From Sabellastarte sp. h YS-2021 (lineage: Eukaryota > Annelida > Polychaeta > Sabellida > Sabellidae): a DNA stretch of 64,000 bases. How positions within the stretch are numbered: the stretch's first letter is position 1; each line of letters opens with the position of its first letter. Under the pieces are notes generated by a model, which was given only the letters and a program-made list of their open reading frames with translations, was not told the DNA's origin and did not search any database. Location: assembly GCA_964017235.1 (NCBI GenBank), contig OZ024931.1, forward strand, positions 97,606,221-97,670,220, written 5' to 3'. Both the position numbers and the translations under genes were made by a program. Shown piece after piece: positions 2,975 to 63,830 of this stretch.

Positions 2975-3411
2975 CAAGCAATCAGTGCCCGTGAACAGGC
3001 TCTGTGTCAGCTGACTGTGTGTTTTCAGTTTCAGAGTAGAAGTGAAAGAAGTTCACAAAGGTTGTGCCCTGCAAATGGTATTCAGAAGTAAAGTACAAAG
3101 TTAGCTGTTAAAGTGTAAAACCAGGTGGGAAACATTTTTCATCAAAATACTGTAAATTTGAAAATTTTAATTACTTAAATGTAGCTTTTATAAGCTACAA
3201 GCTTACCATGTGGGACTCAATGCTGTACTCAGATGGCCACAAGGCATCATGGCCAACGTCTAAGAAAAATAGACATTTATAGTTGGCCGTAGCCTCTCGT
3301 TGTCGTCACGTGATAACTTCTGACCAATCGCCCTACTTTCTCGTTGAAATTTTCTAAAACCTACCCCTCAGCTGTAAACAGCGGGGAGGCAGGGTGGGAC
3401 TCTACTGAGTC

Positions 3412-3505
3412 CCACATGGTAAGCTTGTAGCTTATAAAAGCTACATTTAAGTAATTAAAATTTTCAATTTTATTACGCTACAATAGCTTACTATGAGGGA
3501 CTCAA
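3412..3505 (-). repeat. DIRS-2 internal complementary region (joined-tip sequence)
   Basis: On the minus strand this reads the right tip of DIRS-2 (GTAAGCTATTGTAGC.TAATAAAA) followed directly by its left tip (TTGAAAATTTTAATTACTT), so it is complementary to the two element ends placed head to tail. DIRS elements are known to carry such a region and to use it to make circular DNA. One base differs from the actual right tip (GTAGCG against GTAGCA). Confidence 0.8.
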
Positions 3506-3895
3506 TGCTGAATCCAACCGCCCGGTGGCGGGATTACAGCTGAGACTGGAAGGAATGTCAATTTTTCTTAGATTTGAAGTAATAATTATATTAGAATAGT
3601 GTTAGAAATACCAGTCTGAGTCCCGTTTACAGTGCCCCAATCCCGCAGACTGGGCTTGTAAGGAGCCAAAAACCTATATAGAATAGAAGACAGTGCTAAA
3701 ACTGTCAAGATGTTTTGATTGTAGGACGGAAGTGCAGCAGTGCTCACTTAGAGGTCTAAGGGTCCCTAGGGGCCCGTCACGAGTGACATACCAGCCCAAA
3801 TGGTTGGAATTCTAATAAAATTTTTGCCACCTGAATATGAGATTAATGACAACTTAATAAGTGCTTAATACAAATTACTTTGATAAACTAAAAAC

Positions 3896-6851
3896 AACAA
3901 GAGGAGAGTGCCCGTGAACGGGCACTGTGTCAGCTGACTGAGTGTTTTTGATTTGTGAAGGTGATTAGAGGACAGAATAATTATCAGGAAAAGGGCTGTA
4001 CAGAAATACAGTAAATGGTAACTGAACAGCAAGTTCGAAAAAAATTCCGAAGCTGACAGAAGAAAAGGATAAAAAAGTTGTGCCCTGTAAATGGTATTAT
4101 GAAGGAAAATAACAAGGTAATTGTTTAAGTGTAAAAAATAGGTTAAAACATATTTAAAGAAATACTACAAATGCAATATCCTCGTTCGACCTTGAAGAAG
4201 GGGTCCAAGGTCAAATCTAACCACACAAATACATTCCCAGCCCATGATTTCCTATGGTTTACCATTCCAAACCTCTAGGACCAATTATAAATGAGTTATA
4301 AGCAATTTTAAGCTTGGCTGTCCTCATTTGACCTTGAAGAAGGGGTCCAAAGGTCAAATCTGACCATACCAAAAGATTCCGAGCCAATGATTTCCTATGG
4401 GATGGTTTACCATCCCAAATCTCTGTCACCAATAATAAGCGAGTTGTAGGCACTTTCAATTTTCGCTATGCTCATTTGACCTTGAAGGAGGGTTCCAAGG
4501 TCAAATCGGACCATATCAACAGATTCACAGCCCATGATTTCCTGTCTGTTTACCATCCCAAACCTCTGGGACCAATAATAAGCGAGTTATAAGCACTTTT
4601 AAGTTTGGCTATCCTTGTTTGACCTTGAAGGAGGGGTCATTGAAGGTCAAATCTGACCACACCAAAAGATTCCCACCCCATGATTTCCTACAGGTTGGTT
4701 TATCATCCCAAACCTCTAGGATCAATAATAAGGAAGATATAAGCACTTTTCATGACTGACAAAAAACACCTGTGGCGGCCATCTTGTTTCTCAAAATGAG
4801 GCCAAAAATATTCCCAGACAACATTTTATGGTTATTAATATATACTGCAAACTTAAGAAAGCTAGCTATAATATTTTTTTTCATCAGAGCAGTAATGGTG
4901 AAATCTCTCTCTACACACTGCGGCTATCCGGTGGATACAATGATTTACTCAACAGTGAGAACCTGAAAGTAGCTATTGCTCAGTTATGCCATGACATAGA
5001 GGGCTGCAATTTCACTATGTTATAGCTGACCAAAAATTCTGTGAATAACATATTTAACAAATTACTCTAAATGTAATAGTTTTCAAGTTACAACTGATTT
5101 ACTCAACAGTGAGAACCTCAAAGGAACTATTACTCAGCTATGCAATGAGCTACATGTCTGAAATTTTACTATGTTATAGCTAACCCAAAAGTAGGTGAAC
5201 AACATATTTAAGCAAACTACTGTAAATGCAATAGTTTTCAAGCTACAACTGATTTACTCAATAGTGAGAACCTGAAAATAGCTATTGCTCCGCTATGCCA
5301 TGAGCTATAGGTCTGTAATTTCACTATGTTATAGCTGACCCAAAAGTAGGTGAACAATATATTTTAACAAAATACTCCAAATGCAATATTTTTCAAGTTA
5401 TAGCTGATTTACTCAACAGTCAGTACCTGAGAATAGCTATTGCTCAGTTGTGCCATGAGCTATAGGTCTATAATTTCACTATGTTATAGCTGACCCAAAA
5501 GTAGCTGAATAACATATTTGCACAAATTTCTGTAAATGCAATAGTTTTCCAATTATAACTGATTTACTCAACAGTGAGAACTTCAAAGTAGCTATTACTC
5601 AGCTATGAAATGAGCCACAGGTCTGAAACTTCACTATGTTATAGCTGACCCCAAAATAGGTGAATAAGATATTGAAACAAAATACTCTAAATGCAATAGT
5701 TTTCAAGTTATAAGTGATTTACTCAACAGTGATAACCTAAAAGTAGCTATTACTCAGCTATGCCATGAGCTACAGGTCTGAAATTTTACTATGTTATAGC
5801 TGGCCCAAAAGTAGCTGAATAACATATTTATACGAAATTCTCTAAATGCAATAGTTTTTAAGTTACAAGTGATTTTACTCATGATGGAAGTTACTGAAAA
5901 GCCCAAAAGTAGCTATTACTCACTTAGCTATTGAGACAGACACCCAACTTACTCACCATATTGTAGCTATGAAAAAAGTAGCTGAATAACATATTTTAAC
6001 AAAATGCTCTAAATGCAACACTTTTCAAGTTATAAGCGATTTACTCAACAGTGATAACCTAAAAGTAGCTATTACTCAGCTATGCCATGAGCTACAGGTC
6101 TGAAATTTGACTATGTTATAGCTGACCCAAAAGTAGCTGAATAACATATTTATACGAAATTCTCTAAATGCAATAGTTTTCAAGTTATAAGTGATTTACT
6201 CAACAGTCATAACCTAAAAGTAGCTATTACTCAGCTATGCCATGAGCTACAGGTCTGAAATTTTACTATGTTATAGCTGGCCCAAAAGTAGCTGAATAAC
6301 ATATTTATATGAAATTCTCTAAATGCAATAGTTTTTTAAGTTACAAGTGATTTTACTCATAATGGAAGTTACTGAAAAGCCCAAAAGTAGCTATTACTCA
6401 CTTAGCTATTGAGACAGACACCCAACTTACTCACCATATTGTAGCTATGAAAAAAGTAGCTGAACAACATATTTTCACAAAATGCTGTAAATGCAACACT
6501 TTTGAAGTTATAAGTGATTTAGTGCATGATTTCATGAATTTTAATGCATTAAAAATTATTAAAAAAATTTATTAAAAAAAAAGTAAGACAGATCCAGGTC
6601 TCATACTCACACAAGAGAATCTACCTCTAGCCTAGTACATATATGCAAGATATGAGAGAAATCCCTGCAATAGTCACTGAGAAAATTGTGATAAAAAGTT
6701 GAAATTTTCACACTTTTGGTGGGGGTACCCCCCTTGTAATGTCTCTAGCAAACAGACGAACAGACAGATTTGCATGCCTTGAACAATTTTTCATCCTCGA
6801 TAGATAAGGTACGCCCACGCCGCAGAGTGATGACATAATGTCAGCTGACTT
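3896..6851. mobile_element. HINE-like tandem-repeat element copy 2, nested in DIRS-2
   Basis: One end has a perfect 8-bp-stem hairpin GTGCCCGTGAACGGGCAC (3,908-3,925) and the palindrome GTCAGCTGAC (3,929-3,938); the other end has the same palindrome (6,840-6,849). Inside, in order: about four 147-bp satellite-E units (4,190-4,750), a GGCGGCCATCTTG linker, about ten 155-bp satellite-C units (4,985-6,510), and a tail with the palindrome GGGGGTACCCCC near 6,720. A near-identical copy lies at 49,090-52,103. No ORF of substance. Read on the minus strand the hairpin is 3'-terminal, as in Helentron-type elements; that assignment is inference. Confidence 0.7.
4985..6510. repeat. Satellite C array, ~155-bp monomer
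   Basis: About ten tandem units with the theme TTTACTCAACAGTGA, AGCTATTACTCAGCTATG, CACTATGTTATAGCTGACC, AAGTAGCTGAATAACATA and ATGCAATAGTTTTCAAG. It recurs at 11,808-13,273, 25,870-27,450 and 50,130-51,710. It is related in order and sequence to satellites A (133 bp) and D (143 bp). Confidence 0.9.
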
Positions 6852-6895
6852 GTCAAAATGACCTTACCCGTAACATCTTGAAGGTAAAAGAATAC

Positions 6896-8150
6896 CTAGA
6901 TCCTGAGATAGACTCCTGAAGACTTGGTTGTAGCGGATGTGCCCCCCCCCCCCCCCCCTCTTTTTTCTTTCCGAGGATAACTGGTCTGAGGGGAAGGATC
7001 TAGGACTTGTTGTGCCGCCACTACGGGTCCCAGATACATATTGTTGTCGTTGTCTGACCAAGTAAGGTCTTTTAAGTAAAAATTTGCAAATGTGTTGTGA
7101 GCTTTCCAGTGACAGGCTTGCATGATTTGGTCCACCGATACCCCACCGTAAAAGGCCTTAGAGGCCGCGAAGGCCCGGTTGTCATGCGCTTTAACTTGGA
7201 CCAAGTCCAAGGCTTGTTGGTCTGCTTGTTTATAACAAAGTAGGATGGTTTGTTTCAACCATGAAGAGAGAGTAGCGGGTCTGAAGTCTGAGGTATGTCC
7301 TTTCTTAAAGAAGATGAAAAGGAGGGACCGAGACCCTCTCAGGTCTTTGGTTCGATCCAAATAGTACCTCAGGGCCCGCACCGGACACAGGGTCCTGTCT
7401 TCTTTGAATTGTCTATCTATAATGGTAGTCAAAGCAGGAATAGTCACCGGAGACACACTTTGAGAACCTTCTCTTGCTAGTTGGTTTTTGGCTATGAAAT
7501 CAGAAGAAGGGAACAAGGCGACCTTTTCCCATTGGCCTAGATTAGATACTTTGTTTGCGACCCAGGCATGGATTTCGCTGCGGCGTTTGCCGGAGGCCAA
7601 AGCTAGCAAGAAAGCAGTTTTGAGGGTAAGATGTTTGAGGTCTGTGTCTTTCATAGGCTCAAAGGGTGCTTTTGTGAGCTCATTGAGAACAACAGAAAGG
7701 TTCCACTTAGGAAGATTTCTGTAACTTTTTGGACGATCCCTGTGGAAACTGGAGAGTTACCTATGAAGGTCTGCATTGTGTGCAATATGGTGGGCCGTTG
7801 GGCCCAAAGTGTCAACGATTGCAGTCCTGTAACCATCAATGGTCGAAGGGCGCCTGTTTAGGTCTTGGTACAGGTACATGAAAAAATCTGAGATTTGTTT
7901 CACAGATGGAGTGGAGAAAGCCACCGAATTTTCTCTGCACCATTTTTCAAATAGGGCCCACTTTGACTTGTAGATGGTCCTTGTTGATGACCGCTGAGGA
8001 GCAGCAATTCTCTCTGCCACCTCCACAGAGAAGCCTTGTTCTTGGAGTTGTCCGCTCCTAGACACCAGGCGTGGAGGTTGAGCTGTTGTGGGTTGTTGTG
8101 GAACACATACTTGTGGGACTGTTTGAGTAGGGTCGTTGACACTGGAAGTT
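6896..8150 (-). pseudogene. DIRS-2 tyrosine recombinase, one in-frame stop
   Basis: Encodes the integrase-like recombinase that would insert a DIRS circle. The N-terminal SAM-like part reads FSVEVAERIAAPQ and STIDGYRTAIVDT. The catalytic half has the Arg box SGKRRSEIHAW, the HxxR box VKAHDNRAFAAS, and CHW...NFYL with the presumed nucleophilic Tyr. A single TAA codon at 7,757-7,759 splits the frame between DLHR and LSSF, where DIRS-5 has leucine; the two halves are in the same frame. A run of 18 C (about 6,942-6,959) gives a glycine stretch near the C-terminus. It overlaps the upstream polyprotein frame, as is usual in DIRS elements. Confidence 0.88.
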
Positions 8151-9511
8151 GTAGTGGGATCTCTGTTGAGAGCCGCACTAGGTCCCAAATCCAGGGCATC
8201 CCTGGCCAGCCTGGGGCTATTACGATGATCAGGCAATGGCATTGCTTGATCTTTTGGATTACCTTGTGAAGGAGAGCCGTAGGAGGGTAAGCATAGGCAG
8301 TGAGACTCGTCCAGTTTATGTTCAGAGCATCTATGTCCCAAGCCTTTGGGTCTGGGACAGGAGATACGTACAGTGGAAGTTTGTGGTTCAGATGAGTGGC
8401 AAATAAGTCTACATGAGGTGTGAACCACTTTTGGCAGATCTTTTTTCCCGATCTGACCAGAGACCCTTTGTAGAATTTTGATCTAAGTGAGCGCCCCAAC
8501 CTTCGTTTGAGGCGTCGGTAAAGAGTTGAATACTGTGCTCCTTGGGATGAAAGTTTGCACCTTTCATCACGTTTGAGGGATTTTGCCACCAGTCTAGGTG
8601 GGCTGCAATGGCTTCTGTCCAAGGAAGGAGGCTGTCCAGCGACTGAGGATATCTCCAGTGCTCCTTGAGATGAAACTGAAAGGGTCTCATGTGAAGGCGT
8701 CCCTCCGGGACCATTTTCTCCGTTGAGGCAAGCAACCCAATTAGCGACATCAAACATCTTGCAGTCAAAACATGTTTTGACTTGAGTCGTAGGATCAAAT
8801 CCTGAAATTTGAGCCATCTCTCTTGAGTGGGTTTTACAAGGGCTGAATCTAGATGGTATTCGTAGCCCATGAACAAAAACACCTGAGTAGGTTTCAGTTC
8901 TGATTTTTCCTGATTTATTATCCAACCCAAGGACTGAGTTAGGTCTACCACTGCCTGAGTGTTCACTTGGGCTTCCTCCTGAGACTGAGACCTGGGTACT
9001 AGGAACAGGCGACTGTAAAACCCGAGAGATTTTACATTTTCCACCCTTTCGATTGCGTTCTTTGACAGAAGAGATGGGCCTTGTACTCTGACAGGATCAG
9101 AGGAAATCTGACCAAATTTGGCTTTGAAAGGAATGGCAGTACGTAGCCATTGGTGATAATGTTTAACACGTTTGGAGAACATTTGTTTGTTTGCCAGTCT
9201 CTCCTGAAAGAACGGAGGCGACCTCCTACTGGTGGACTGAGTGAGGCTTTGCAGGAGTCATTGGGAAGAGGGGTTTCCACGCCCTCTTCCCCTATTATGG
9301 GGTCAAAAACGACCCCTGGAGCCTCTGAAGTTCGGTTTCCCCCTTCCTGAGGAAAACGATTGGTTACTGCTTTGTGAGGAGTTGCCCCCATAGGGCCGTT
9401 TCCTGTAGGAGACTCTTCTTTTGTTGTGGGGACCACGAAAGGGCTTATTCTGATAGGGTGCGAAACCCTGAGAGTCTTTAGAGGTGCCTTTTTTGAGGAG
9501 GAAGTCTTCAC
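7900..9511 (-). pseudogene. DIRS-2 RT/RNase H/methylase-like polyprotein with internal deletions
   Basis: N-terminal RT-ORF sequence (PVGGRLRSFRRDWQ, NGYVLPF) lies at 9,130-9,300 and SRLFLVP at about 9,000. The palm is missing: FLVP passes within a few residues to LGWIINQEKSELKPTQ, so the motif A and YxDD boxes are gone. RNase H keeps FTDASNEGWGAHL but loses its central and C-terminal Asp/Glu boxes before the frame resumes at VDLFATHLNHKLPLYVS. The tail (AYPPTALL, IVIAPGWPGMPW) resembles a degenerate Dam-type N6-adenine methylase (NPPY-like box), a domain known in DIRS elements. It cannot reverse transcribe. Confidence 0.82.
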
Positions 9512-11417
9512 CTTCCTTCACAAGTTGAGACTCGAACAAGGAAGGGTCCCAAAAGGACGAGTTCCTGAGTTCTTGGCGTCTCGTTTCCCCCAATTGAGGT
9601 TGTAAGAGAGTCATTTTGGCTTCGCGCCTAAGCAAGCCGGTATTAGCCATAGAATATAATTCCCTCTGGAGAATATGGGCTAGGATTTGCTGAGGCATGT
9701 AAGGGCCCTGTGTTGAATAAGAACTGTCTTATTCCAAAAATCCATGTACTCACAGACTTCCTCATATCCGCGCTTTGCTGCTTTTTCAGGATTGGCACCT
9801 TTTTGGATCTGTGACTTAATCTTCTTGACAGTTGACTTAATGCTATGTTGACACTTCTCAAGGGAAGCATTGCAAGAAGAAGAAGTTTTAGCAAAGGCAG
9901 CGGTGAAATTGAGGGTTGAGATATTTTGCCTAGCCTGATGCTCCAACTCTGAGAATTGGTAGGGGGACCTTGCCCATAGGGGTTTAGGAGTAATACAGAT
10001 TTTGGCGAAATCTGTATTCAACTCCTGATATCTGTCCTGATAACAGGGCTGTCCCACCCTGTACCAATTAGAAGTGGCTGGAGGAGGCTTGACGTATTTA
10101 CCCTCGGGTAAATTAGCAGCCTTAAAGTCATGTTGAAATTTATCAAAGGCGTCCTTGATAACTGAGCCAAGTGGAAGAATAGAGGAAGGACCTGTAGGTC
10201 TGAGCTCTTGACGGCCTTTCTCATCATCCAGACCCATGACTGAAGTTGAGGACCTAGGCATAGACTCCCTGGGGTCAGGGAGTGAAAGAATGCGCCTAAA
10301 AGTGTCGACCTCTTCAGCGTACTGTGAGGGAATGTCAGACAGAGCTAATTCCCTATAATAAGGGGGGTCTGGATCATGTGGAGGGAGGTCTTGATAAGAA
10401 ACAGCCCCTGAGGGCTAAGCCCCAGAGGGCTTAGAAGACCTGTGTCTGGCTACAGGGGACTGATCCTCCCCTGGGGAAGATGACACATATCTGGACCTTG
10501 TTTTGTGTTTACTCTTATCAGAGTGCTTTTTAGGTTTGGTAGAAGGGATCCAAGGTTCATCGGATTCCTCATTAGATTGATCCGAGGCAGACCTGGATTA
10601 AATTTCATGCCTACTGCGAGAGTGGCTATGCTTTTTGGGTTTGTCCGAGACCTTTTTCGGAGGTAGTTCAGATGAAGCAACGTACTGATCCGAGGTATCA
10701 TGCTGGTTAAGTACGAGACGAGGAGGGAGTGCTGGACCGTAGTCCACATCCATATCCTCGGTTTGGATGTTAGTTCTAGGTCTCGGAGGGGGTAGGTCCA
10801 GATTAACAGCAGTACTGGATGTACCAGGTTTGGAAGCAGGAAACGAGGTCTGATCCACCTCTGTTTGCTTTTTAGCAGTTAACTCCTCTCGGAGCAACTG
10901 AAAAGCTTCCAACATGGATGCCTGGAAGGAACCCATTTGTTGCTGTAAATGAATATTTAAAGAATTGCCCAGGGTTTTTCAAGATTTGTTTCAATTATTT
11001 GTTGCAAGGCAGTACCTGGGGTGGGTGGGACAGATTTGGCTGGTGTTTTAAGTGATAAAGAACTGAAAGGAAGGGGCTGAGGACGGGGGGGTGAGGTAAA
11101 AAGATTGTCAGCAGCAATCTCGAGGTCTGCATTTGAGCCAGTGAAGGAATCCCCGTCGCCTTCGCCCAAGAGATCAAGTTCATCATCTTTTGTACTAGTT
11201 TCCGCCTTTTATTTTTTAAGATAGCGTGAATTTTCTTCATCTGGTCATCTGTGAAAGATGCACAGATATCACAGGGTGTTTCAAAGGTGACACAGGGGTC
11301 ATCACCCTTGCCAGCCTCCCTACAGGTAGGGCAATAGTTGTGTAAATCAAAACTAAAACAAAAATGGCGGCATTTCTGAGCTCTCAGTTTGTCTTTATTC
11401 GTTTGGTGGATGGACAT
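9303..11417 (-). pseudogene. DIRS-2 Gag-like protein, frameshifted
   Basis: The first 140 codons (10,995-11,417) begin MSIHQTNKDK and hold a Cys/His cluster: C16, H18, C29, C32, C42, C49 and C52, with GDDPC between pairs. It is the same arrangement as DIRS-3 Gag, so probably a zinc-binding module. Downstream segments are read in different frames (10,957-11,169; 10,598-10,936; 9,680-10,261; 9,303-9,698), with shifts near 11,190, 10,945 and 10,600. The C-terminus is Arg/Gly-rich (SGRGKPNFRGSRGRF). Too divergent from DIRS-3 in the middle for residue-level alignment by eye, so it is a separate DIRS subfamily. Confidence 0.75.
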
Positions 11418-11807
11418 TTTAAACGCAATAAAAGACGTACAATATAAAGGGCCTGAACCGAGGAAAACTCAAAACACGCGAAAACAAGAAATATACTTAT
11501 CCTGTCAAAATAAAAATTTTACAGAATGAACTATATTATATAATAAAAGAAATATCCAAAAAAGAACCTCCAACAATAAGTAAAAGCTGAGAAATAAATG
11601 AAAATGTCTGTATATTTACAAACTGCTACCAGTTCAACGTGGCCATGGAGAAAGTAGGGCGATTGGCCAGAAGTTATCACGTGACGACAACGAGAGGCTA
11701 CAGCCAACTATAAATGTCTATTTTTCTTAGACGTTGGCCATGATGCCTTGTGGCCATCCGAGTACAGCATTGAGTCCCACATGGTAAGCTATTGTAGCAT
11801 AATAAAA

Positions 11808-13273
11808 GCAATAGTTTTCAGGTTACAAGTGATCAAATCAACAGTGATAATCTCCAATTAGCTTTTACTCAGCTTTATACTGAGGTACAGGTCTGCAATT
11901 ATACTCTGTTATAGCTGAGCGAAAAGTAGGCGAATAACATATTTAAACCAAATACTGTAAATGAAATAGTTCTCAAGATACAACTGATTTACTCAACAGT
12001 GAGAACCTCAAAGTAGCTATTGCTCATCAATGCAATGAGCTACAGGTTTGAAACTTTACTATGTTATAGCTGTTCAAAAAGTAGCTGAATAATATATTTA
12101 AAGGAAATTCTCTAAGTGCAATAGTTTTTCAAGTTACAATTGATTTACTCAACACTAAAAACATGAAAGTAGCTACTGTTCATGTATGGAATGAGCTGCA
12201 GGTCTGCAACTTTACTATGTTATAGCTGGCCCAAAAATAGGTGAACAACACATTTAACCAAATACTGAAAATGTAATAGTTTCAAGTTATAACTCATTTA
12301 CTCAAAATGTGATAACCTGAAAGTAGCTATTGCTCAGCTATTCTATGAGCTATAGGTATAAAATTGCACTATATTATAACTGACTGAAAAGTAGATGCAT
12401 AATACATTTAAACAAAATACTGTAGATGTAATAGTTTTCACGTTACAACTGATTTACTCAACAGTGAGAACCTGGAAGTAGCTATTGTTAAGCTTTGCAA
12501 TTAGCTACATGTCTACAATCTTACTATGTTATACCTGACCCCAAAGTAGATTAATAACATATTTAAAGAAAATTCTCTAACTGCAATAGTTTTCAAGTTA
12601 CAAGCGATTCACACAACAGTTATAACCGGAAAATAGCTATTGCTCAGCTATGCAATGAACTACTGGTCTGCAATTCCACTATGTTATAGCTGACTGAAAA
12701 GTACATGAATAACATATTTAAACAAAATACTCTAAATGCAATAGTTTTCAAGTTACAACTCATTCACTCAACAGTGTGAACCTCAAAGCAGCTATTTCTC
12801 AGCTATGCTACGAGCTACAGGTCTGCAACTTTACCATGTTATACTTGACCCAAAAAGTACATGAACAACACATTTCAAGGAAATACTCTAAATGCAATAG
12901 TTTTCCAGTTAAAACTGATTTAAAACTGATTCTCAACACTGAGAACATGAAAGTAGCTATTGCTCAGCTATGTTATGAGCTACAGGTCTGCAATTGCAGT
13001 GTGTTATAGATGACTGAAAAGTAGTTGAATAACATATTTAAACAAAATACTGTAAAAACAATAGTTTTCAAGTTACAACTGATTTACTTAACAGTGACAA
13101 CCTCAAAGTAGTCATTACTCAGCTATGCAACAAGCTACATGTCTGAAATTTTACTATATTATAGCTGACCCAAAGTAGCTGAATAACATATTTATACAAA
13201 ATTCTCTAAATGCAATAGTTTTCAAGTTATAAGTGATTTTACTTAATATGGAAGGTACCGAAAAGTCAGAAAG
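11808..13273. repeat. Satellite C array (continuation of HINE-like copy 1)
   Basis: About nine more-diverged 155-bp units, directly continuing the monomer interrupted at 3,157. Ends mid-unit at 13,273 (..GAAAAGTCAGAAAG), where DIRS-4 begins. Short open frames here are satellite artefacts. Confidence 0.9.
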
Positions 13274-13979
13274 TTGCAAATTTAATAAGTAAATTAAATT
13301 TTTATAAGTTAATACCCTATCCAATGGACAATATGCTAAACCGGTCGGCGCAGACCGGCCCGCCAAACGCCAGAAAAAGACGTCCTGTGTTTCCACTGGC
13401 TGGCCGGTCCATAGTACTGTGCACTCCCCAGATGGCGCCTCATACTTCCTTCCTGTCTAGAAACCTGACGTCATAGCATCTTTTTCGTTGTCTAAACCTC
13501 TTTAGACCCCTAGTAAGCTGATAGCGGGGTCGGTTTATTGCGTTAATACATCCTATCCAATGGACAATATGCTGAATACCTACCGCTTGGTCGGCGGGTA
13601 AGTTACTAGGGACTTATGTGAACTCACAAGTAATAGCAAATTTTGTCAGGAGACCTATAGGCCCAGGCCTGGGTTGACTTTAAGGTCAGGAAACCCTGTA
13701 AGGCCATGGTCGGTTGCCAGCAGCCGGTTACCCGGGGCTATGCCGCCGTCGCCCCCCCCCCCTTTTGCAGACCTGCTCTGAGGTAGGGGAAGAGTTCAGT
13801 CCCAGAACGCAAATAAACCTCCCGAAGGAAGCACGCCACACTTAATTCTTATGTACATGAAGAACTGTTATACATATATACAAATCTCCTCAATCTAAGG
13901 GCCACTTGTGGATCTGCTGAGCAGCCACTACCAAGCCCAATTGGTAAAGCTCTGAATCAGCCCAAGCCACGCCCTTCAT

Positions 13980-14900
13980 ATAGAACTGTGTGAAGGTATT
14001 GTGACTTCAGTGGCAGGCTGACAAGATTGGATCTAAGGAGACTCCCGACTGGAAGACCTTAGAAGCAGCAAAGGCCCTGACATCATGGGCTTTAACCTGA
14101 TGTCAAGTGTGGGCCTCCTGGTCAGAGCTCATAACATAGGATCACAGTCTGCTTGATCCAAGAGGAGATAGTGGCAGGTGAGATGTCTTTTTGAAACCTT
14201 TCTTAAAGGAGACAAAACCCACCTCCTTATTCTGCCTGAGGTCCTGTCCAAATAGTAGCGCAACGCTATGACCGGACAGAGGGACCTGTCAGACTTGAGG
14301 GACCTATCCAGAGTTGGGGCCAGGGCTGTTATAACCCCTGGGGACACACTATCTGGACCCTTTTTGGCCAGCTGATTCTTGGAGAGAAAGCTGGGTGATG
14401 GGTACAGGGACACCTTTGACCAGTCGGATTGGTGTCTAATATTTCTGTTTTGCCAAGCATGTATCTCACTTCTACGCTTGCCCGACCCCAGGGTCAAGAG
14501 GAAAACTGTCTTGAAGGTCAAATGCTTCAAGGAGGCCTTTAATTGGTTCAAAATGAACCTTGTCAGCTGGTGCAAAAACCAGGAAGAGGTTCCAGGAGGG
14601 GATTCCCCTCCGGCCTTTGGGTTTGTCTCAGTGGAAACTATCCAGGAGACGAGTGAGATTTTCATCCTTAATGACATTGATGGGCAAATTTCCCAGACTA
14701 TCAGCAATGGCTGACCTGTAACCATCAATGGTGCTGGGCTGCAACTTCCTGTCCTGAAACAGGTACATAAGGAAGTCAGCAACTGACTTAACAGGGGGTG
14801 TCCGAAGTCCACTTGATGAATGATACATTACTTTGTAAAAATGGCCCACTTGCCTCATAGACTGATCTGATTGATCCCCTTTGAGGAGCCTCAATTCTTG
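13980..14900 (-). pseudogene. DIRS-4 tyrosine recombinase, degraded
   Basis: Open pieces at 14,628-14,894 (VADFLMYLFQDRKLQPSTID) and 14,129-14,812 (SGKRRSEIHAW, YYLDRT) match the recombinases of DIRS-2, -3 and -5. The frame changes near 14,520-14,640, where the linker between the N-terminal and catalytic domains is read in another frame, and stops follow after RYYLDRT. The HxxR region is near 14,090-14,100 (GGGCTTTAACCTGATG on plus, the VKAH box in reverse). Several breaks; no activity expected. Confidence 0.75.
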
Positions 14901-14949
14901 CTGCCACTGCCTCAGACAAGTCCTGCGCCTCGATTGCTGAGGCTCTAGG

Positions 14950-16201
14950 AGCCCTGCATGGAGATTAGGATTTGTCAGATTTCTGTGAGGGATCTGATCA
15001 AATGGCTGTGAACAGGTTGGGCAGATTGGGCAGGCTCAGTGGGATTTGGCTGGACATGGCCACTAGATCCTAAAACCAAGGCATGTTGGGCCACCCCGGA
15101 GCAATCAGAATGATTCTCTTACATGGGGAGTCTTGCAACTTCTCCACCACTTTGCCCAATATGGCTGATGGTGGGAAGGTGTATGCTTTCAGATCCTACC
15201 ATGGCCAACTGAGCGCATCCACTGCTGTGGCCAGGGGATCCGGTACCGGTGACACAAAACAGAGGCAACTTGTTGTTGAACCTCGTGGCAAATAAGTCTA
15301 TTTTGGGCCGGTGCCACCTGCTGCATGGAGTAGAAGACCTCTGGAAGGAGAAACTACTGTTTGGATGGTCTGGCCTAGCCTGGATAGCTTGTCTGCTACC
15401 ACATTCGGCCGGCCTGGAATGTGTCGTGCTTTAGAGTCACTTGTTTCCTGGTACACCAGGTCAAGATTCTCCATAGTAAGGCACAAAGTGGGCCCGACCT
15501 CATGCCTCCTTCCTTTATGTATGACACTGCTGTGGTGTTGTCGGTTGCTACAAGTACTATCTTGTTTGAGTAAAGGTCTTGGAACTCTTTAAAGCCAGAA
15601 AGACTGCTTTAAGTTCTAGATAGTTTATATGCAGCTTGCTTCCCGGAGGGGACCAGGTTGCTCTTGCAAAGTGCTCGTCTAAGTGAGCGCCCCACCCTTC
15701 TATTGATACGTCTGTAAATATTTGCAGAGCATGTTTTATTGGGTGTAATGGTTGGACTGTAAGGACATTGTCTTCCTTCAGCCATCATTGTAAATGGGGG
15801 TGCAAGGACCTGGGGATTGGGATCACCTTTTCAAGTGATTCTGGGACCCTCCAGTTGTGTTTGTGATGACACTGAATGGGTCTCATATGAAGTTGGCCTA
15901 GATGAACTTGCTTTTCTGTAGCTGTTAGTAAACCTATCAAGGACATGAATTCCTGGACCGGGCAAGCCGGTAGGGATAGCAGTTTCAGCATTTTATCTTG
16001 AAGGTTCTGCCACCGATCTGGAGTCAGCCGGACCCGATCAGATCTGAGGTCGAACTGGTAGCCTATAAAATTGAAGTCTTGTTTGGGACATTTGGTATTC
16101 TGACAAACATTTTCTGTCCCTCCGGACACTGGTCCGGTCTGGTGACAATGATCCAGGTTAACAGTCTCTCTGTTCTTATTGTGGTCCGGTGGGGCTGACA
16201 T
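14950..16201 (-). pseudogene. DIRS-4 RT connection/RNase H/methylase-like region, degraded
   Basis: The RT connection segment at 15,785-16,201 has FNFIGYQFDLRSDRV, MSLIGLLTATEKQVH and QLHMRPIQ. RNase H follows: WGAHL near 15,690, LELKAVFLA near 15,610, TDN..AVSYI near 15,540, and ARHIPGRPNVVADKLSR at 15,390-15,450, so all four acidic boxes can still be traced. A methylase-like tail (LFATRFNNKLPL) near 15,290 runs into frame breaks. The RT palm itself is missing, replaced near 16,200. Confidence 0.75.
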
Positions 16202-16609
16202 AACTTTTCACATTAATAGACTCTTTGCCCCGGGCCAGCAGCCTGCAAGGTGCAGCATTTACAGAGCAATTGTCATTTGTGAGATGTCTGACCCCTGGCC
16301 GGACATGATGACAAATTTTATTATCTCTCCAGTCAAGTCCAGCACCGATAACAGGTTGTTGAGAGGTGTGATAAGGGAAGGTTGCCTGGCAGTAGCTTGG
16401 GACACTGTCATATCACTGTCATATCACCAAGATCACTGACTGGTCTAAGAATTCTCTGTGACCAAATTTACCTTAGGCAACTCTGTCCGGTATCGGGACT
16501 CCATACCCGGTACTTTACTGTAACCAGTAATTCTCTGTAACCGACAAAAAACTGGCAGGCTGGGGTCACCAATGAATTTTGACAGCTACCGGCTTTTTTT
16601 TTTTTTATA

Positions 16610-16800
16610 TGTAACCAGTTGGGGTGAAGCACTGTACAGTAAGGACTGTGTAGCCAGCACCCTGTTAGTAGACTTTGTAACTGGTAGGTTGAAGTAAGTG
16701 TACAAGGCTGTGTAGCCAGTACCAGTCGGTACACTCTGTAACCAGTTGTTGAAGCAAGTGTACAAGGCTGTGTAGCCACTTGCTAAAGCAATTTTACAAC
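16610..16800. repeat. ~60-bp degenerate tandem repeat inside DIRS-4
   Basis: Three units share GTGTACAAGGCTGTGTAGCCAG and TGTAACCAGT/TGGTTGAAG. They lie in the gene-free half of DIRS-4. No coding meaning seen. Confidence 0.6.
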
Positions 16801-16934
16801 TATCTTGTGTGTTGAATTCAGCTTGCTGTAGGTTTCCTCCATTAATTAAAGTATTTATTTAATCGCACGTCTTATTTGTAGATTTGACAGTTGCTGGGAA
16901 AGCCCTTGTGAACTATTTTTAGAAACACTTGGTG

Positions 16935-17700
16935 TTCGGTGTGTCACCTGACCAGCCTGCTGGTCGGAAAGACGCGCGATTGGCTGATTGGAGCTCGTCA
17001 GTTATCGCGTTCTTTTGCGATAGTTAAACATGCAAATGCGCAGTATTCTGCTCATCCACAAACCCCACTACCGACAACGAAGGCCGGACCATGAGAGAGG
17101 GATTGGTATCACAGCAGATTGAAGTTGTGAAGAACGCAGTTCCGACCTTCCTGGTCGATAAAAGACACGTGACCAGCTTCGTGATTTGGTCGGAAGGACA
17201 CGCGATTGGCTAACTGGAGATGACGTCAGTATTCGCGTTCTTTGTGTGATGCTTTACCGGCAACTTTACAGTCCACAAAACCCCACTACCGACAACAAGG
17301 CCGGGTCTGCAAGGCAGGGACTGGAATCACAGTAGACGTGAGTTCTGAAAGAACGCACTTCCGACCTTCCTGGTCGGTGAAAACACGTGACCTGCTTCGT
17401 GATTGGTCGGAAGGACACGCGATTGGCTGGCTGGATATGACGTCAGAGGTCGCGTTTTTTTGAGCTGGCCGGTCGGCTGATGCTTAAAAGCAGAGAAGCC
17501 TGGACCAGTGCGCTCTGAAGATGAAAGTCCTGGTCGATGCCGGTCTGAAGTCAGTTGCTCAGCTGGCTGTGCACTCAAACCAGTGTCCTGGCCATCCACT
17601 GCCCTTATTACCGACACAAGTGCCGGATCCACAAGGGTGGGACTGAGAGTGATTAAAGATGAAGTTCCTTCTATGTAAATACTAGGTGAGGTCGGCTGAA
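16935..17700. promoter_or_regulatory. ~225-bp promoter-like tandem units in DIRS-4
   Basis: Three units, the last partial, each contain GGTCGGAA, ACGCGATTGGCT (an inverted CCAAT box) and CCCACTACCGACAAC. Two of them carry a perfect CRE (TGACGTCA near 17,222 and 17,438) and a CACGTGAC E-box (near 17,166 and 17,394). CRE copies also sit in both terminal repeats (about 13,470 and 18,370). The motifs are seen directly; promoter function for the minus-strand DIRS genes is inferred from their density and position upstream of the RT region. Confidence 0.45.
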
Positions 17701-18549
17701 TATGAGCTTGCCGGTCGACTAATGCTTTACAGCCAAGATGTCTGGACCAGTGAGCTCTGAAGAAATCTGAAGAATTCATCTTGCTTCTGATGAAAAAACA
17801 CTAAATACTCGAGCTAGGCTGGTGTGACTGATGCTATACAGCAGAGAAGTCCGTACCAGTGCGCTCTGAAGATGAAGAATGCATCTCTTGCTTGGGGAAT
17901 TCCTTCTTTACAGTGTTCAAAACTATGTAGACTGAAGTTTCCCGTGATTTCTATTTGTAGTACTAGAAAAGACGTTTCTATGGTGATTGTAGCTGGAAGG
18001 TTACAGCAGGTACATTCAAACAAAAAACACGGATAAAAATACCTTGTAAGTAGTATATCCATTATATTTCTTAATATTGTCGATCTGCCCCTAACAACAC
18101 AATTGTTGAATGGGAGGAAACTAGACAATGGCTGCCTTCATATTTCTCGTATATTACTGCCCTATCATCAACACTAACTTGAGTGAACTAGGGAGCGTTT
18201 CCAGCAGATTTCTTAACATATATCCGTGCTTGATATGTAGATTACCCTTCTACTCTAACATATTTGCAAATAAGGTTGAAAATCCGACATAATGCACACT
18301 TTTCCTTCAAACTCTGGAGATGTTGAAAAAACACGTCCGCACAGTACACGCGCCAAACGAAAAAGATGCTATGACGTCAGGTTGTCTACACAGGAAGGAA
18401 GTACGAGGCGCCATCTGGGGAGTGCACAGTACTATGGACCGGCCAGCCAGTGGAAACACAGGACGTCTTTTTCTGGCGTTTGGCGGGCCGGTCTGCGCCG
18501 ACCGGTTTAGCATATTGTCCATTGGATAGAATGTATTAACGCAATAAAA

Positions 18550-18665
18550 TAGCTATTACTCACTTAGCTATTAGGATAGACACCCAAGTTACTCACCATG
18601 TTGTAGCTATGGAAAAAGTAGCTGAATAACATATTTTAACAAAATGCTCTAAATATGAAAATTTT
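18550..18665. repeat. Satellite C remainder after DIRS-4
   Basis: Resumes the satellite-C variant unit (TAGCTATTACTCACTTAGC, CACCCAAGTTACTCACCAT) at the base where it broke at 13,273 and ends where an ACTAGAGG element begins. Confidence 0.85.
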
Positions 18666-24835: not shown

Positions 24836-25227
24836 TGGAAAATTCGTAATGATTAATTAATCATTAATTACTCGGCCATTTCTTGACCAATCAATGCCAA
24901 AATCTAATGATTTCCAGATTTTAATAGAATGAATGTATTTGCCAAGTTTCAGGTGAATTGATAAAATTCCTTTCAAGTTATCATCCGGACAAGCTTCCCC
25001 ATCGAAAAAAGACATTTTTAGTCATGTGACCTCTCTGATTGGTTGAAATGTCACAGCAGCATATTCAAAAGAAATTCCCCAAGGCTACTGCCTAAACCTG
25101 CCAAATTTGAAAAGAATCCGCCTAACGGTTACAGAGTTATAAGGAAAACAAAATGCGGAGCCGCCGGAGCCGCCGGAGCCTGAAGGTCTCCCATACACAA
25201 ACAAGCGTCCCTTGCGGGACGCTTAAT

Positions 25228-34558: not shown

Positions 34559-34866
34559 TGATTTCTAGACATCTATATAACAAACCTACTTGCCAAATTT
34601 TATGTGAATAGGTGAAACGCTTTTTAAGTTATCATGCGGACAAGCACACCCTTTTGAAAAACATGTTTTTGGTCATGTAACTATTCTGATTGGTTGAACT
34701 GTCATGACATCATATTCAGAATTTTTTTCCAGGGCCACTGCATACACCTGCCAAATATGAAGAGAATCTGCCTTATGGCTGCAAAGCTATTGCGAAAAGA
34801 AAATGCGGATCCGGCGGAGTCGCTTCTCCCATATACAAACAAGCGTCCCTCGTGGGACACTTGATA
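34559..34866. other. Diverged duplicate of the ACTAGAGG-element tail
   Basis: Repeats the tail's order (GACATCTATATAACAAACC.., AAGTTATCATGCGGACAAGC, GGTCATGTAACTATTCTGAT, ATGCGGATCCGGCGGAG) with many substitutions. It ends in a decayed hairpin AAGCGTCCCTCGTGGGACAC (34,841-34,862). Confidence 0.6.
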
Positions 34867-54629: not shown

Positions 54630-55170
54630 TTGAAAAATTTTGTTGTAATTTTAATTTTTATTAGATAAATACTTACCATTTCCTGACCATAGCTATTTGT
54701 TGGTGCCATCCAACTCACTGGCCAACGTTGAGAAACATTTTAAGCTACCTTAAGAAGCCAGTGAGTGAGTGTGGACTAGGAAGCCCCCCAATGGTCATGT
54801 GACCACGCCAATAGGCGCCATTCATTGTTTTTGTTGCAAAGCTCACCCCTAGTACCCTAGTACTGAATCCGCGGGGAGTCTGGGGGGGACTATCCTGGTC
54901 AGGAAATGGTAAGTATTTATCTAATAAAAATTAAAATTACAACAAAATTTTTCAATTTTATTGCGAAAAATACACTTACCATTTCCTGACCATAGCTGAA
55001 TACAGCCTTCATCGATGGCGGGCACTACTAGAATATAAAGACCTAGTAACAACCAAATGCATAGTAACAAACACACCACAAGCATACCGGCATTCATACT
55101 CAGACTCACCTCAATCCCGAGGAAGCCGGACTGTTGAGTAATACCATGGAAGCCATACTCCATATGTTGA
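54630..55170. repeat. DIRS-3 left terminal inverted repeat, with internal complementary region
   Basis: Complementary to 60,188-60,707 apart from the outer tip. Contains TGGTCAGGAAATGGTAAGT in both directions, flanking a 200-bp core (ACTCACTGGCTTCTTAAG and its surroundings). The joined-tip sequence (minus-strand CAATAAAATTGAAAAATTTT) lies at about 54,938-54,965. Confidence 0.9.
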
Positions 55171-55376
55171 TACCATTCATACCACCACCACTAAACACAT
55201 CAAACAGCAAAGTAACAGCAAACAAACTGGACTATTTACAGCTGTACAACCATCTCAGAACACATCTGAAAAACAAGAAGCCAAATATAAGAACCAATAC
55301 AAATACAGGCTTCAAAAAAACATATTCCAAATACAATGACATTATAATAATAAAATATTAGTAATGACATTACCTA

Positions 55377-56470
55377 TTAACAATTTACAATATGTTGAGC
55401 CGCAACCATAGGCCCAATCTTCATAACATCCCCATTATGCCAGCACAAATCTTTCAGATAAAAATTTGAGAAGGTTGAATGGCTTCTCCAAAAACAGGAA
55501 GCCAAAATCTCATCTAAAGCAACTCCTCCCTTAAAAGCCAAAGAGGCAGCCAAAGCTCTGACCTCATGTGCCTTGACCTGGGAAACATTCTGAACCTCCT
55601 GATCAGATTTTTGATAAGCCATAATGATAGACTGCTTAATCCAAGAAGATATAGTAGCCTTCGAAATATATTTTGAGTAGCCCTCCTTAATGGCTACAAA
55701 AAGAAGTTTCTTGCCCTTCCTGAGATCTTTTGTCTTGTCAAGATAATATCTCAAGGCCCTGACTGGACAAAGAGATCTATCCTGTACCAAAGATGGATCC
55801 AATGTAGGTTTCAAAGCAGGGATAACTACAGGTTGAATAGCCAAGGGTCCCTCCGAAGCCAACTGATTTTTAGCTATGAAAGCAGTTGAAGGAGAAAAAG
55901 TAACTTCTGACCAATCTCTTTTCCTACTGAAGGAGTCAAAAGTCCAAGCATGGATTTCACTACGCCTCTTACCAGAAGCCAAAGCCAGCAAGAACACTGT
56001 CTTGAAAGTCAAAATTTTGAGATCAGCTTTTGCCAAGGGCTCAAAAGGAGCCCGAGTGAGAGCAAGTAAGACCAAAGACAGGTCCCAATTCGGAATAGAT
56101 CTATTTGCTGAAGGTCTGTCCCTATGAAAACTAGCAATCAAACGATTCAAATCTAAGCTTTGAGAAACCATTTGACCTGTAGAGCCTGGCCCATCTGCTA
56201 CCGAGGTTCTGTAACCCGCAATAGTTCTAGGTTTCAAGTTCTTATCAGTGAAAAGATGATTAAAAAATCAGCTATTTGAGGAATAGTTGGTTTTGTGACA
56301 TCCACCTGATTCTCCTGGGCCCACTTTTGAAATATGGCCCACCTTGAATCATATACTCGCCTTGAGGATTCTCTCTGAGGTGCCTTAATTCTATCTGCCA
56401 CCTCAACAGAGAATCCTCCCTGACCTTCTTGAATGAGTCCAGATACCACGCATGGAGATTCAGATACTCC
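55377..56470 (-). pseudogene. DIRS-3 tyrosine recombinase, one frameshift
   Basis: The catalytic part is an open 286-codon stretch (55,377-56,237): Arg box at R91/R92 (SGKRRSEIHAW), H224-x-x-R227 (VKAHEVRALAAS), W250/H253 and Y260 (CFWRSHSTFSNFYL), the R-H-R-Y set of tyrosine recombinases. The N-terminal part (FSVEVADRIKAPQ, IPQIADFLI) is read in the neighbouring frame up to about 56,240. A one-base loss in the T-rich run near 56,255 separates the two. The N-terminus overlaps the end of the RT polyprotein in a different frame, a normal DIRS arrangement. The protein would join the element's circle to target DNA. Confidence 0.9.
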
Positions 56471-58330
56471 AGATTCTTGTGGAATCTGAGACTGAAAGGT
56501 TGCTTCAGTAGATTGTGCACTTGAGGAAGCCTCAGTGGAATCTTGGCTGACAATTCCACCAGATCCCAAAACCAAGGCATCCCCGGCCACCCTGGTGCTA
56601 TCACAATGACCCTGCACCTGTAGGTGATCATTTTCTGAACTAACTGGGGAAGGATGGCCACTGGACAAAAAGCATAGGTGTCCAGAGCCTCCCAAGAGAT
56701 GTTCAATGCATCTATCTGCCAGGCCTTGTCGTCTGGGACAGCAGATACGTAGGTTGGAAGTTTGGCATTCAAGCTGGTGGCAAACAGATCCACCATTGGC
56801 TTGTGCCAAACTTGGCAAATTTCTTGAAAGACCTGAGGATGAAGAGACCACTCTGTCTGGATGGCCTTGTCCCTCCTGGACAGGGAATCTGCTATTACAT
56901 TGAGATTCCCTGGAATATGTCTGGCTCTTATATGGATCTCCCTGGCATTGGACCATGCCAGAATTCTCCACATCAAAGCACACATTTCGAAGGAGTGAGT
57001 GCCTCCTTCCTTGTTGATATATGAGACCACAGTTGAGTTGTCTGAAGAAACCAACACTATTTTTTGCCTTAATTGTCCTTGAAAATGTTTCAGGGCTAGA
57101 AAAACAGCTTTCAGTTCCAAAATATTGATATGCAAGTCTTTTTCTGATAGCTGGCAGACCCCACTTACAGTACAATTGTTCAAGTGAGCCCCCCAACCCT
57201 TCTCTGATGCATCTGCGAAGATCAGAATATTGTGTTCTTTCTGATGCAGATTCGAACCCTTGAGTAAGTTCTGAGGAACCATCCACCAAGCCAGATGGTC
57301 CTTTATCAACTGAGAAATTGGGACCACCTTGTCCAACGACTGGGGAAAGTGCCAGTTGGTCTTCAGAAACCACTGAAACGGTCTCATATGGATCCGACCC
57401 AAAGGAACCGTTTTCTCCATGGAAGCCATGACCCCAATTAGTGACATGAGCTTCCTTGGGGTAGTAGAGAGACCTTGGATAATGGAAACTGCCAGAATTC
57501 TGAGCTTGTCTAACTTCTTTTGATTGGGGTACACTAAACCTTCTCGAAGGTTGAACCGATAACCCAGAAACTCGAGATCCTGAGTTGGTTTGAGTTCTGA
57601 TTTCTTCAAATTGACAATCCAACCCAACTTTTCGATTAGATTTAACAATTTTTGAACGTCCCGAGCACACGACTCTGGATCCTTGGATCTCACCAGCCAA
57701 TCGTCCAAATACTGATGGATTCGAACCCCCTGTGAAAGAGCTATGAATTTGACCTCTTTCACCACTCGAGTGAACTCCAAAGGAGCAGTCGCTATCCCGA
57801 AGGGCAGGGCTCTGAATTGATAAGCCTGACCCTAGTAGATATTTTTGAAATTTCTGGTGAATGGGAACATGAAAATAAGCGTCGGTAAGGTCTATTGAAG
57901 CCACCCATTCGCCTGCTTGAAGAGAAGCCCGAATGACTTCTGCAGTTTCCATCTTGAAGGTAGGAACATGCAAAAAGGTATTTACCACACTGAGATCTAT
58001 TACTGGTCGCCATTTGTTTTCTGGTTTTGGAACCAGAAACAAACGACTGTAGAATCCGAGAGAGTTCTTGTTTTGAACCGGAACCACTGCCCTCTTTTGA
58101 ACCATTTGTTGAACTGACTCCAGCAAAGCTTTTTGTTTTACTGGATCCGAAAACTGCTTTTTATTGTCGGATACCGGGCCAGAGGTGGTTTCTGTTTGAA
58201 TGGAAGACAATAACCTTGTTTCAAAACAAGAACTACCCTCGGATATACCTTGAAGTTTTCCCACACTTTCCAATAATTTCCTAAACGGGCACCAGGATAT
58301 TGTGTTTGTGTGCTTACCTCCATGTAGTCA
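56272..58330 (-). pseudogene. DIRS-3 RT/RNase H/methylase-like polyprotein, two frameshifts
   Basis: The downstream 502 codons (56,272-57,780) are open: YLDD at residues 24-27, connection with HMRPFQW, RNase H acidic residues D190 (FADAS), E222 (LELKAV), D247 (SSDNS) and D298 (ADSLSR), then the Dam-methylase-like tail from about residue 330 (VDLFATSLNAKLPTYVSAV, IVIAPGWPGMPWFWDL). In the tail the NPPY-like box is weak (YAFCPV). The upstream RT fingers (FLVPKPENKWRPVIDLS, SIDLTDAYFHVPIH) lie in another frame. An 11-bp deletion near 57,832, relative to the copy at 190-220, removes part of the strand before ALPFG and shifts the frame. A one-T loss near 58,149 shifts the N-terminus. Confidence 0.9.
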
Positions 58331-60073
58331 CTTCCTCCTGCCCCTACCCCCTCGGGCAGAGCCTCTATTGTTGTTGAAAGCACCAGATTGTCTTTTGTTT
58401 TGCTCCCCTTGTTTGCTTTGCGAACGAAAATTCTGGAAAGCAGCATTCTGGTACCTGTTTTGTGTCAATTCCTTCTTAGAATCAGTAAAAGAACGGGAAC
58501 CATAGGAATCTCCTCTGTGTTTCTTGAAAGCCGGTTCCCGGTTAATCTGGCTCCATTGAATGAAGTTCTACTCCACTTCTGCCAGAACCTTGGAATTAAA
58601 CAATTCCTTTTTTGTGAGAGATGAATTTCTGAGTCTAGCAATATCTTTATCTGTCACATCCCTATGACAAAGTTTGAGAAAATCATCCCTTCTGTTCAAT
58701 AGCAAATTTGAAGCAAGGGTCATGGAGGTATCCAACACATCATCTAAAGTTTTGCCTAGACATCCCATGGTGGTAGATTGGAGATGCAAACAATTCTGCA
58801 TAAAATTCATGCTCTGTTGTATGTCCTCCTGATCCACAGACTCCTTCATTTTATCTAACTCTGCAAACATTTCATTTGTAGCCTTCTCCATTGTTGATTT
58901 GAACCAGAACACATGATTTAAAATCTGTATATTTTCCCTAGAAACTGTCTCCCAAGCCAAATATTGTTTTAAAGGTGTAGAAACCGAGGAAGGAGCTTGA
59001 AAGGGAGAAGCTGCAATGTTCTTAAATGCATCCTGAATCCTAGGAGCAGTCAAAGAGAAAGATTGTGGAGAGACTTGATAGAACTTCATCTGTGGCTTTG
59101 GGAAAGGAAGGAAATGACCCTTGGACAAAGATGGATGGTGAGGGTCATTGTCGTCTACATCATTGCTTCCCAAAGCAGAAAACTCCTTATACTTCCATAA
59201 CTCCACTAATGGTTGAGCAGGAGGCAAAGCCATAGATTGTTGCACAGATTTTTTAACTTGATCTCTGCTTGAAAAAACAGAAGGAGGAACAAAACATTCA
59301 ACATTCTTCACCTCCAAATCTAGCCATTTTTTGATAGTCTCCAAAGTGTCAGTGTAACCAGGTGAATCTTCCTCTTTAGGATGAATCTCACCCTGTTCCA
59401 AATCCGGATCCGGCTCATCTGAAGACTCTGAATGAGATCTTTTCCTAGCCACACCGGATTCATCAGAAGCAAGACCGGATACAGACTGTCGGTCGAATTC
59501 AGCCCTTGTGATTGTAGATGACCTTCTGTCCAGCCGGCCCGGGGCGGTAGAAGTCGCAGAAGAAGATGAAGGTTTAGAACTCGCCAGTGGTTGCTTGGCA
59601 ACCTGACAACTGTCCCTGCCGGAGCTAGTACGACTGCCGACAGTTTCAGAGTCCTTGTGTTCCAAATTCTGAATTCTTTGAGATAAAGTTGCAAACTCAG
59701 AGAAAAACCTGTCCAATTTGTCTTCTAGAGACCTACTTTTATTAGAAGTAGTAACAGAAGAAACTGAAACTTCATCCTCATCTAACAAAGAGTCATCAAT
59801 ACCACCTTCTTTACCGCCATTGTCCACCAAAGCAGAAGAATTCTGAGTTTTCTTGCTTTTATATCTATTCCTATTAAGCAATTTCCTCTTTTGATCTTCA
59901 GAAAATGCAGAACAAATAGCACACTCTGAAGATTTAACACAGGGATCGTCACCCTTCATATCATCCCTACACTTAGGGCAGTAGTGATGATCATCCCATT
60001 CTGCCATAAAATGGCCACAGAAAACACTTTTCCTCTGTCCTTTTTTAACCTTGTCCTGAGAAGACATTGTCAC
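58330..60073 (-). pseudogene. DIRS-3 Gag-like protein, one nonsense codon
   Basis: 501 codons open from Met at 60,073 to a TAG at 58,568-58,570, where copy DIRS-1 has Gln; the frame continues beyond it to an Arg/Gly-rich end near 58,330. The N-terminus has a Cys/His cluster: C19, H21, H29/H30, C32, C35, C45, C51 and C54, with GDDPC, shared with DIRS-2 Gag and likely zinc-binding. A basic stretch (RNRYKSKK), an acidic linker (EPDPDLEQGEI) and a helical core (VKKSVQQSMALPPAQPLVE, NEMFAELDKMKE) follow. It would package element RNA. The start is chosen because the Cys/His cluster follows directly and the DIRS-2 start is equivalent. Confidence 0.85.
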
Positions 60074-60187
60074 TACATATGCCTCACTACAGAACTAAAA
60101 TTCCACAGTAAATCCACGAAATAACTCCAGAAAAAACGAAAATTTCCAAAACACATCCACACTCAATGATGGCCAACAAAAACAATG

Positions 60188-60707
60188 AATCAACATATGG
60201 AGTATGGCTTCCATGGTATTACTCAACAGTCCGGCTTCCTCGGGATTGAGGTGAGTCTGAGTATGAATGCCGGTATGCTTGTGGTGTGTTTGTTACTATG
60301 CATTTGGTTGTTACTAGGTCTTTATATTCTAGTAGTGCCCGCCATCGATGAAGGCTGTATTCAGCTATGGTCAGGAAATGGTAAGTGTATTTTTCGCAAT
60401 AAAATTGAAAAATTTTGTTGTAATTTTAATTTTTATTAGATAAATACTTACCATTTCCTGACCAGGATAGTCCCCCCCAGACTCCCCGCGGATTCAGTAC
60501 TAGGGTACTAGGGGTGAGCTTTGCAACAAAAACAATGAATGGCGCCTATTGGCGTGGTCACATGACCATTGGGGGGCTTCCTAGTCCACACTCACTCACT
60601 GGCTTCTTAAGGTAGCTTAAAACGTTTCTCAACGTTGGCCAGTGAGTTGGATGGCAGCAACAAATAGCTATGGTCAGGAAATGGTAAGTGTATTTTTCGC
60701 AATAAAA
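60188..60707. repeat. DIRS-3 right terminal inverted repeat, with internal complementary region
   Basis: The joined-tip sequence is at about 60,371-60,463: the right tip GTAAGTGTATTTTTCGCAAT.AAA followed by the left tip TTGAAAAATTTTGTTGTAAT. The outer end stops at CGCAATAAAA (60,698-60,707), directly against satellite E. Confidence 0.9.
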
Positions 60708-63662: not shown

Positions 63663-63830
63663 CAATTGAACAGCACGTTCGAAAGAAATTCTGAAGCTGC
63701 AAGAACTTTAAAGATACGAGCCACCCACTCATTAAGTAAGTGCTGAAAAGCTGAAAATAGTTATCACTGACTTACCTATAGAGATACACCTCCAAGTTAT
63801 TGACCATGTTGTGGCTATGAAAAAAGTGAT
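63663..63830. other. HINE-like/satellite C remnant
   Basis: CAGCACGTTCGAAAGAAATT continues the element split by the CR1 insert. ATAGTTATCACTGACTTACC and CCATGTTGTGGCTATG are decayed satellite-C pieces. Confidence 0.5.

Follow-up and report, generated by a model that had tools for sequence, protein, structure and literature searches.

According to the published model of DIRS1 integration, the triplet at the junction of a circle recombines with an identical triplet of the target, without duplication; NTT is found at both ends in 23 of 28 elements and is complementary to the 3-bp circular junction in almost all of them (PMC3266345). The mollusc elements LgDIRS1-3 and AcaDIRS1-2 carry inverted terminal repeats (ITRs), an internal complementary region (ICR) matching both tips and a 3-bp circular junction (Table 3 of PMC3266345), together with NTT ends, an extension on the 3′ side and no target duplication (PMC3266345). 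Dictyostelium DIRS-1 has ITRs and an ICR on which a circle is proposed to be templated, and it inserts into repeat-rich DNA (PMC5633606, PMC4482531). The same features are found, with half of an ICR in one case, in three complete insertions within the stretch of DNA that we analyzed (64,000 nt, hereafter the window).

DIRS-2 (3158..11807), DIRS-4 (13274..18549) and a third element that was named D1 and used for comparison (54630..60707) were each complete as judged from tips, inverted repeats and an empty site, and the minus strand was the coding strand in all three; the coding frames of DIRS-4 were broken. On the plus strand, the start TTG and the end AATAAAA were read in DIRS-2 (TTGAAAATTTT at 3158 and CATAATAAAA ending at 11807) and in DIRS-4 (TTGCAAATTTAAT at 13274 and CGCAATAAAA ending at 18549), as the initial annotation had it, and also in D1 (TTGAAAAATTTT at 54630 and CGCAATAAAA ending at 60707). 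We consider it very probable that these are DIRS1-like tyrosine-recombinase retrotransposons, which use an ICR-templated circle and exchange its junction with the target without duplication. The shared tips, the ITRs, the ICRs (full in two elements, half in the third), the ungapped empty sites and the end triplets identical to those of the target are seen directly. The circle, the templating by the ICR and the action of the recombinase would follow the published model. RNA would be copied to cDNA, and the ICR would be the template restoring and joining both tips. The resulting circle would read CAA|TTTTATT on the coding strand, i.e., AATAAAA|TTG on the plus strand, and the recombinase would exchange its junction with genomic DNA in which TT follows the break at a distance of one base, without duplication or loss of bases. 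Most of this interpretation is known biology, that of an ordinary DIRS. Against it count the lack of whole-triplet identity in the targets (0/3), the lack of a recombinase profile match, a methyltransferase match that stays below its cut-off, the absence of one half of the DIRS-4 ICR and the small sample of three insertions.

The empty sites were studied by joining the flanks of each insertion (40+40 bases) and comparing them with the window, the junction being spanned when at least 10 bases matched on each side. The joined flanks of DIRS-2 gave 38 matches, 24 of them spanning the junction and all of these ungapped (24/24); those of DIRS-4 gave 19, of which 6 spanned it (6/6 ungapped), and those of D1 gave 27, of which 24 did so (24/24 ungapped). 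This bears out the seamless closure onto repeat monomers that had been described for DIRS-2 and DIRS-4. The breakpoint of D1 fits at shift 0 only, while that of DIRS-4 fits at shift 0 or +1, an ambiguity of 1 nt, so that the start is TTG or TG. For DIRS-2 it lies at shift 0; shift −4 also passed a loose 3-nt script test and was rejected when checked by hand, as a substitution is required there. The insertion points of the initial annotation stand, but the left flank of DIRS-4 reads AGAAAG, the annotated AAAAG being the reading of other monomers. Direct repeats of 2 to 11 nt between the flanks were found neither for DIRS-2 nor for DIRS-4. The flanks of D1 show a 3-nt direct repeat (AAT), and the resulting AAT|AAT was rejected as a target duplication because unoccupied monomers already read CCAATAATAAG, both copies thus being native to the empty site. 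None of the three insertions has a target duplication.

The anatomy of the elements is given here in coding sense. The 3′ terminus of DIRS-2, with the TTG tip (3158..3219, plus strand), is complementary to 3406-3467 at 62/62 positions and begins with a 42-nt extension (3158-3199), the ITR following from 3200. The ICR (3406..3510, minus strand) matches the 3′ tip at 62/62 and the 5′ tip at 40/43 positions, and it contains the joined tip AATAAAA|TTG at 3465-3474 on the minus strand. Its halves of 43 and 62 nt are close to the 39-46 and 67-88 nt of the mollusc elements (PMC3266345). The 5′ ITR (11648..11807, plus strand) includes the AATAAAA end and is complementary to 3200-3342 over 143 nt with 3 mismatches. 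In DIRS-4, the 3′ ITR (13317..13489, plus strand) pairs with 18356-18529 over 174 columns with 2 mismatches and 1 gap. Its half ICR (13534..13573, minus strand) complements the 5′ tip only (39/40); the half complementing the 3′ tip was looked for and not found, 13490-13533 holding unrelated sequence. Since this ICR has only half of the junction, we infer the joined tip of DIRS-4. The ICR of D1 (54896..54997, minus strand) lies near the 3′ end, as in DIRS-2, and is complementary to both tips (60/60 to the 3′ tip and 42/42 to the 5′ tip), with the joined tip AATAAAA|TTG at 54953-54962 on the minus strand. The inverted repeat of D1 is 501 nt long and includes the ICR.

Profile matches to reverse transcriptase and RNase H were obtained for D1 (RVT_1, 1.8e-12; RVT_3, 2.1e-06). 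The profile scan of the DIRS-2 and DIRS-4 pieces gave 0 families, and their relation to D1 comes from translated comparison on the coding strand, in which the segments in common with DIRS-4, among them the RT, have identities of 39-66% for D1 and 40-69% for DIRS-2. A tyrosine-recombinase-like region of DIRS-2 (7046..7885, minus strand) holds a stop and is 54% identical to D1 over 280 aa by translated comparison. In the recombinase alignment, D1 is 56% identical to DIRS-2 and 50% identical to a DIRS-2 relative at 35 kb. These figures bear out the quite different proteins of the initial annotation. In an alignment of three recombinase rows (D1, DIRS-2 and the 35-kb relative, with DIRS-4 left out), R74, K105, H206xxR209, W232 and Y242 are invariant and in the same order; these R, K, HxxR, W and Y would be the catalytic residues of a putative tyrosine recombinase. 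Searches for a tyrosine-recombinase match in Pfam, NCBIfam and the PDB sequences gave none or chance matches only, the three PDB sequence matches being lipases with E values of 1.3-1.4, which were dismissed as chance. In both DIRS-2 and DIRS-4, stops or frame changes interrupt the recombinase frame, and D1, inspected by eye, changes frame as well. The 35-kb relative is truncated (34900-36750; 88% identical over 35018-36588) and holds an uninterrupted recombinase piece of 370 aa (35092-36201, minus strand). Its 36.2-36.8 kb part has a weak match to PCIF1_WW (methyltransferase) of 16.9 bits, below the cut-off of 31.1. Among viral contigs, a degenerate joined-tip pattern gave 0 matches, the RT piece of D1 no stretch, the D1 recombinase 4 pattern stretches and the recombinase alignment (A1) 48, none of them confirmed; the same alignment gave 82 stretches in genome contigs, again none confirmed. 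An Rfam search at the gathering cut-off gave 0 matches.

On the coding strand, the start triplet is TTT in 3/3 elements, the end triplets are ATT, CTT and ATT, and the circular junction is AAA in both full ICRs. The end triplets are thus NTT, but their first base is not complementary to AAA. This differs from the mollusc elements in a comparison limited to tip triplets as given in Table 3 of PMC3266345, where LgDIRS1, LgDIRS3, AcaDIRS1 and AcaDIRS2 are listed as ATT/ATT/AAT and LgDIRS2 as AAT/AAT/ATT, and from DIRS1-2, listed in the same table as TTA/TTA/TAA. The start TTT is shared with the DIRS-like elements of Xenopus, for which it is called a general terminal pattern, although those carry TTT at both ends (PMC9210276). 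The targets share with the junction only AA (plus strand, positions −3 and −2), which is TT on the coding strand, and none is identical to the whole junction triplet. As AA makes up 8-14% of the dinucleotides in the target arrays, finding it in 3/3 targets has a probability of about 0.002 by simple product. The initial annotation had proposed AATAAAA|TTG as the probable recombination core of this lineage. The joined tip itself holds, being present in the ICRs of DIRS-2 and D1 and at 60398-60407. A core of all 10 bases is not supported by these data, since the targets share only AA, the published core is a triplet and AATAAA could be kept for another reason. The joined-tip reading is not new either, because duplication-free recombination of joined tips is the published DIRS1 model (PMC3266345).

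In 3/3 insertions, the start triplet is that of the circle and the end triplet is that of the target. Of the 28 element rows in PMC3266345, 18 have equal ends and are uninformative on polarity. In the other 10, the start is complementary to the junction in 7 and the end in 1 (AcasDIRS1, one of two elements with a left extension only), while 2 are unresolvable, so that the start triplet is the circle's in 7/8 informative published elements. A one-sided sign test gave 0.035 for the published rows and 0.006 with our three insertions added, on small samples in which the published mismatches may be mutations; these fall mostly on the second base in PMC3266345 and on the first base in our insertions. 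No published polarity rule was found among the literature matches listed, in a search without the main reviews. We infer that the 5′ edge of the triplet is where the exchange is resolved, and the start would therefore keep the triplet of the circle and the end that of the target. Defined almost to the base and with empty sites that can be read, these three DIRS insertions conform to the published triplet model, yet they did not require a match of the whole triplet in the target; they also show which end inherits which triplet, and they open to testing the position at which a recombinase that has been little studied carries out the exchange.

The 5′ leader of D1 (60189..60689, plus strand) is an inverse copy of 54671-55171, 501 nt at 100% identity with the ICR included, for which no description was found for the mollusc elements in PMC3266345. 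The leader therefore has an ICR of its own as well as tips joined head to tail at 60398-60407, and the end of D1 at 60405-60707 is a 303-bp TTG...AATAAAA unit. This architecture, known from a single copy, could stem from fold-back copying on the ICR, from the insertion of a short derivative at the tip, or be a family trait. In the first case, the minus-strand cDNA, ending CGCAATAAAA, would fold back onto its own ICR, and copying would continue beyond the joined tip and across the 3′ region, so that the opposite end of the integrated element gains AATAAAA|TTG and an additional ICR. The 303-bp unit might instead be a short DIRS derivative in its own right that landed at the right tip of D1, which we regard as somewhat unlikely: it has both tips and adjoins AATAAAA, an AAA target is available at the right junction AATAAAA|AATAAGC, and self-targeting is reported for DIRS-1 (PMC5633606), but the complementarity extends through the unit and on into the leader without a break (501 nt, 100%), and one fold-back copy of the 3′ region is the simpler explanation. 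That the 5′ end of D1 is a fossil of the ICR step and that, jointly, the exchange takes place at the 5′ boundary of the NTT triplet is a proposal that we make tentatively and with considerable doubt. If true, the fossil would provide evidence, at the level of sequence, for a step of replication so far resting on the model.

The tips are far more conserved than what lies beside them. Among DIRS-2, DIRS-4 and D1, the outermost 10 nt show 26/30 pairwise matches at each end and the next 10 nt 9/30, left and right alike; four blocks deeper in show 7-14/30 (left) and 8-17/30 (right), with a composition-based expectation of about 8.5/30 for such blocks. None of 20,000 random interior triples reached 24/30, and chance or plain drift was rejected on these counts. 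By eye, the joined tip around AAA forms a small inverted repeat, CAAT-AAA-ATTG in D1, GCAAT-AAA-ATTGC from the tips of DIRS-4 and only AAT-AAA-ATT in DIRS-2. The conserved TTGMAAA and CGYAATAA outside the triplet are most simply explained as a putative recombinase binding sequence, and AATAAA may be kept also as an RNA 3′-end signal. A special single-strand fold at the tip was considered too and rejected, two folded 126-nt stretches having z-scores of −0.44 and −0.55.

A stronger role of that signal is conceivable, in which the AATAAA of the tip would be conserved because its copy in the ICR serves the RNA of the element as polyadenylation signal, only the triplet and TTG being recombinase sequence. 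As each cycle copies the tip from the ICR and the ICR from the tip, a signal needed in the ICR would appear at the tip too. A sense-strand AATAAA is indeed present in the ICR of 3/3 elements, including the half ICR of DIRS-4, and a transcript end near the ICR would lead to the loss of most of the right repeat, which the transcript of Dictyostelium DIRS-1 is reported to lack (PMC5633606). However, so A-rich a hexamer is expected occasionally by chance, and a scan that left out the element inserted in DIRS-2 found other hexamers closer to the 3′ tip (AATAAA at 54662; ATTAAA at 54655, 13286 and 3171). Furthermore, CGY before AATAAA and TTG after it are likewise conserved, and most junction triplets listed in PMC3266345 are not AAA. 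No occurrence of AATAAA was found in DIRS-titled papers among the matches listed. We consider this explanation unlikely. Common ancestry alone, with the ends of recent and unconstrained relatives not yet diverged, is highly improbable: the three do share ancestry (D1 and DIRS-2 recombinases 56% identical), but unconstrained tips should drift like the neighboring blocks, whereas matches fall from 26/30 in the outer 10 nt to 9/30, near the composition level, just inside.

All three insertions hit tandem arrays made up of other repeats, whereas Dictyostelium DIRS-1 prefers its own copies (PMC5633606). We make no claim of a preference for tandem arrays, which received 3/3 insertions yet fill much of the window. 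D1 lies in a 147-bp array. DIRS-2 and DIRS-4 lie in an older, diverged copy of an array-bearing mobile element of ~2.9 kb, and what had been called satellite C is the 155-bp core array of this element, other copies of which are present in the window. The array of 155-bp monomers between DIRS-2 and DIRS-4 (11808..13273, plus strand) is part of the older copy, as are 2984-3157 and 18550-18654. The mobile element has internal arrays of 143 bp and 155 bp, and its copies are 98.5-98.8% alike: one lies within DIRS-2 (about 3896-6850), another at 49089-52010 (98.8% over 2,916 columns), and 25225-27738 holds an incomplete copy (98.5% over 2,522 columns). Its ends carry GTGCCCGTGAACGGGCAC and GTCAGCTGAC motifs that, by eye, resemble those of Helentron-type non-autonomous elements. 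The copy at 3896 is absent from the 35-kb relative of DIRS-2 (35018-36588, 88% identical over 1,595 columns; flank 34830-35020 compared by eye) and was therefore taken as a later insertion. Two further features were seen in the window. Positions 1-2292 hold a fragment of a D1-like DIRS, 78% identical to 57646-59915, in which no tip was seen, and 62000-63700 on the minus strand resembles, by eye, part of a LINE-type reverse transcriptase.
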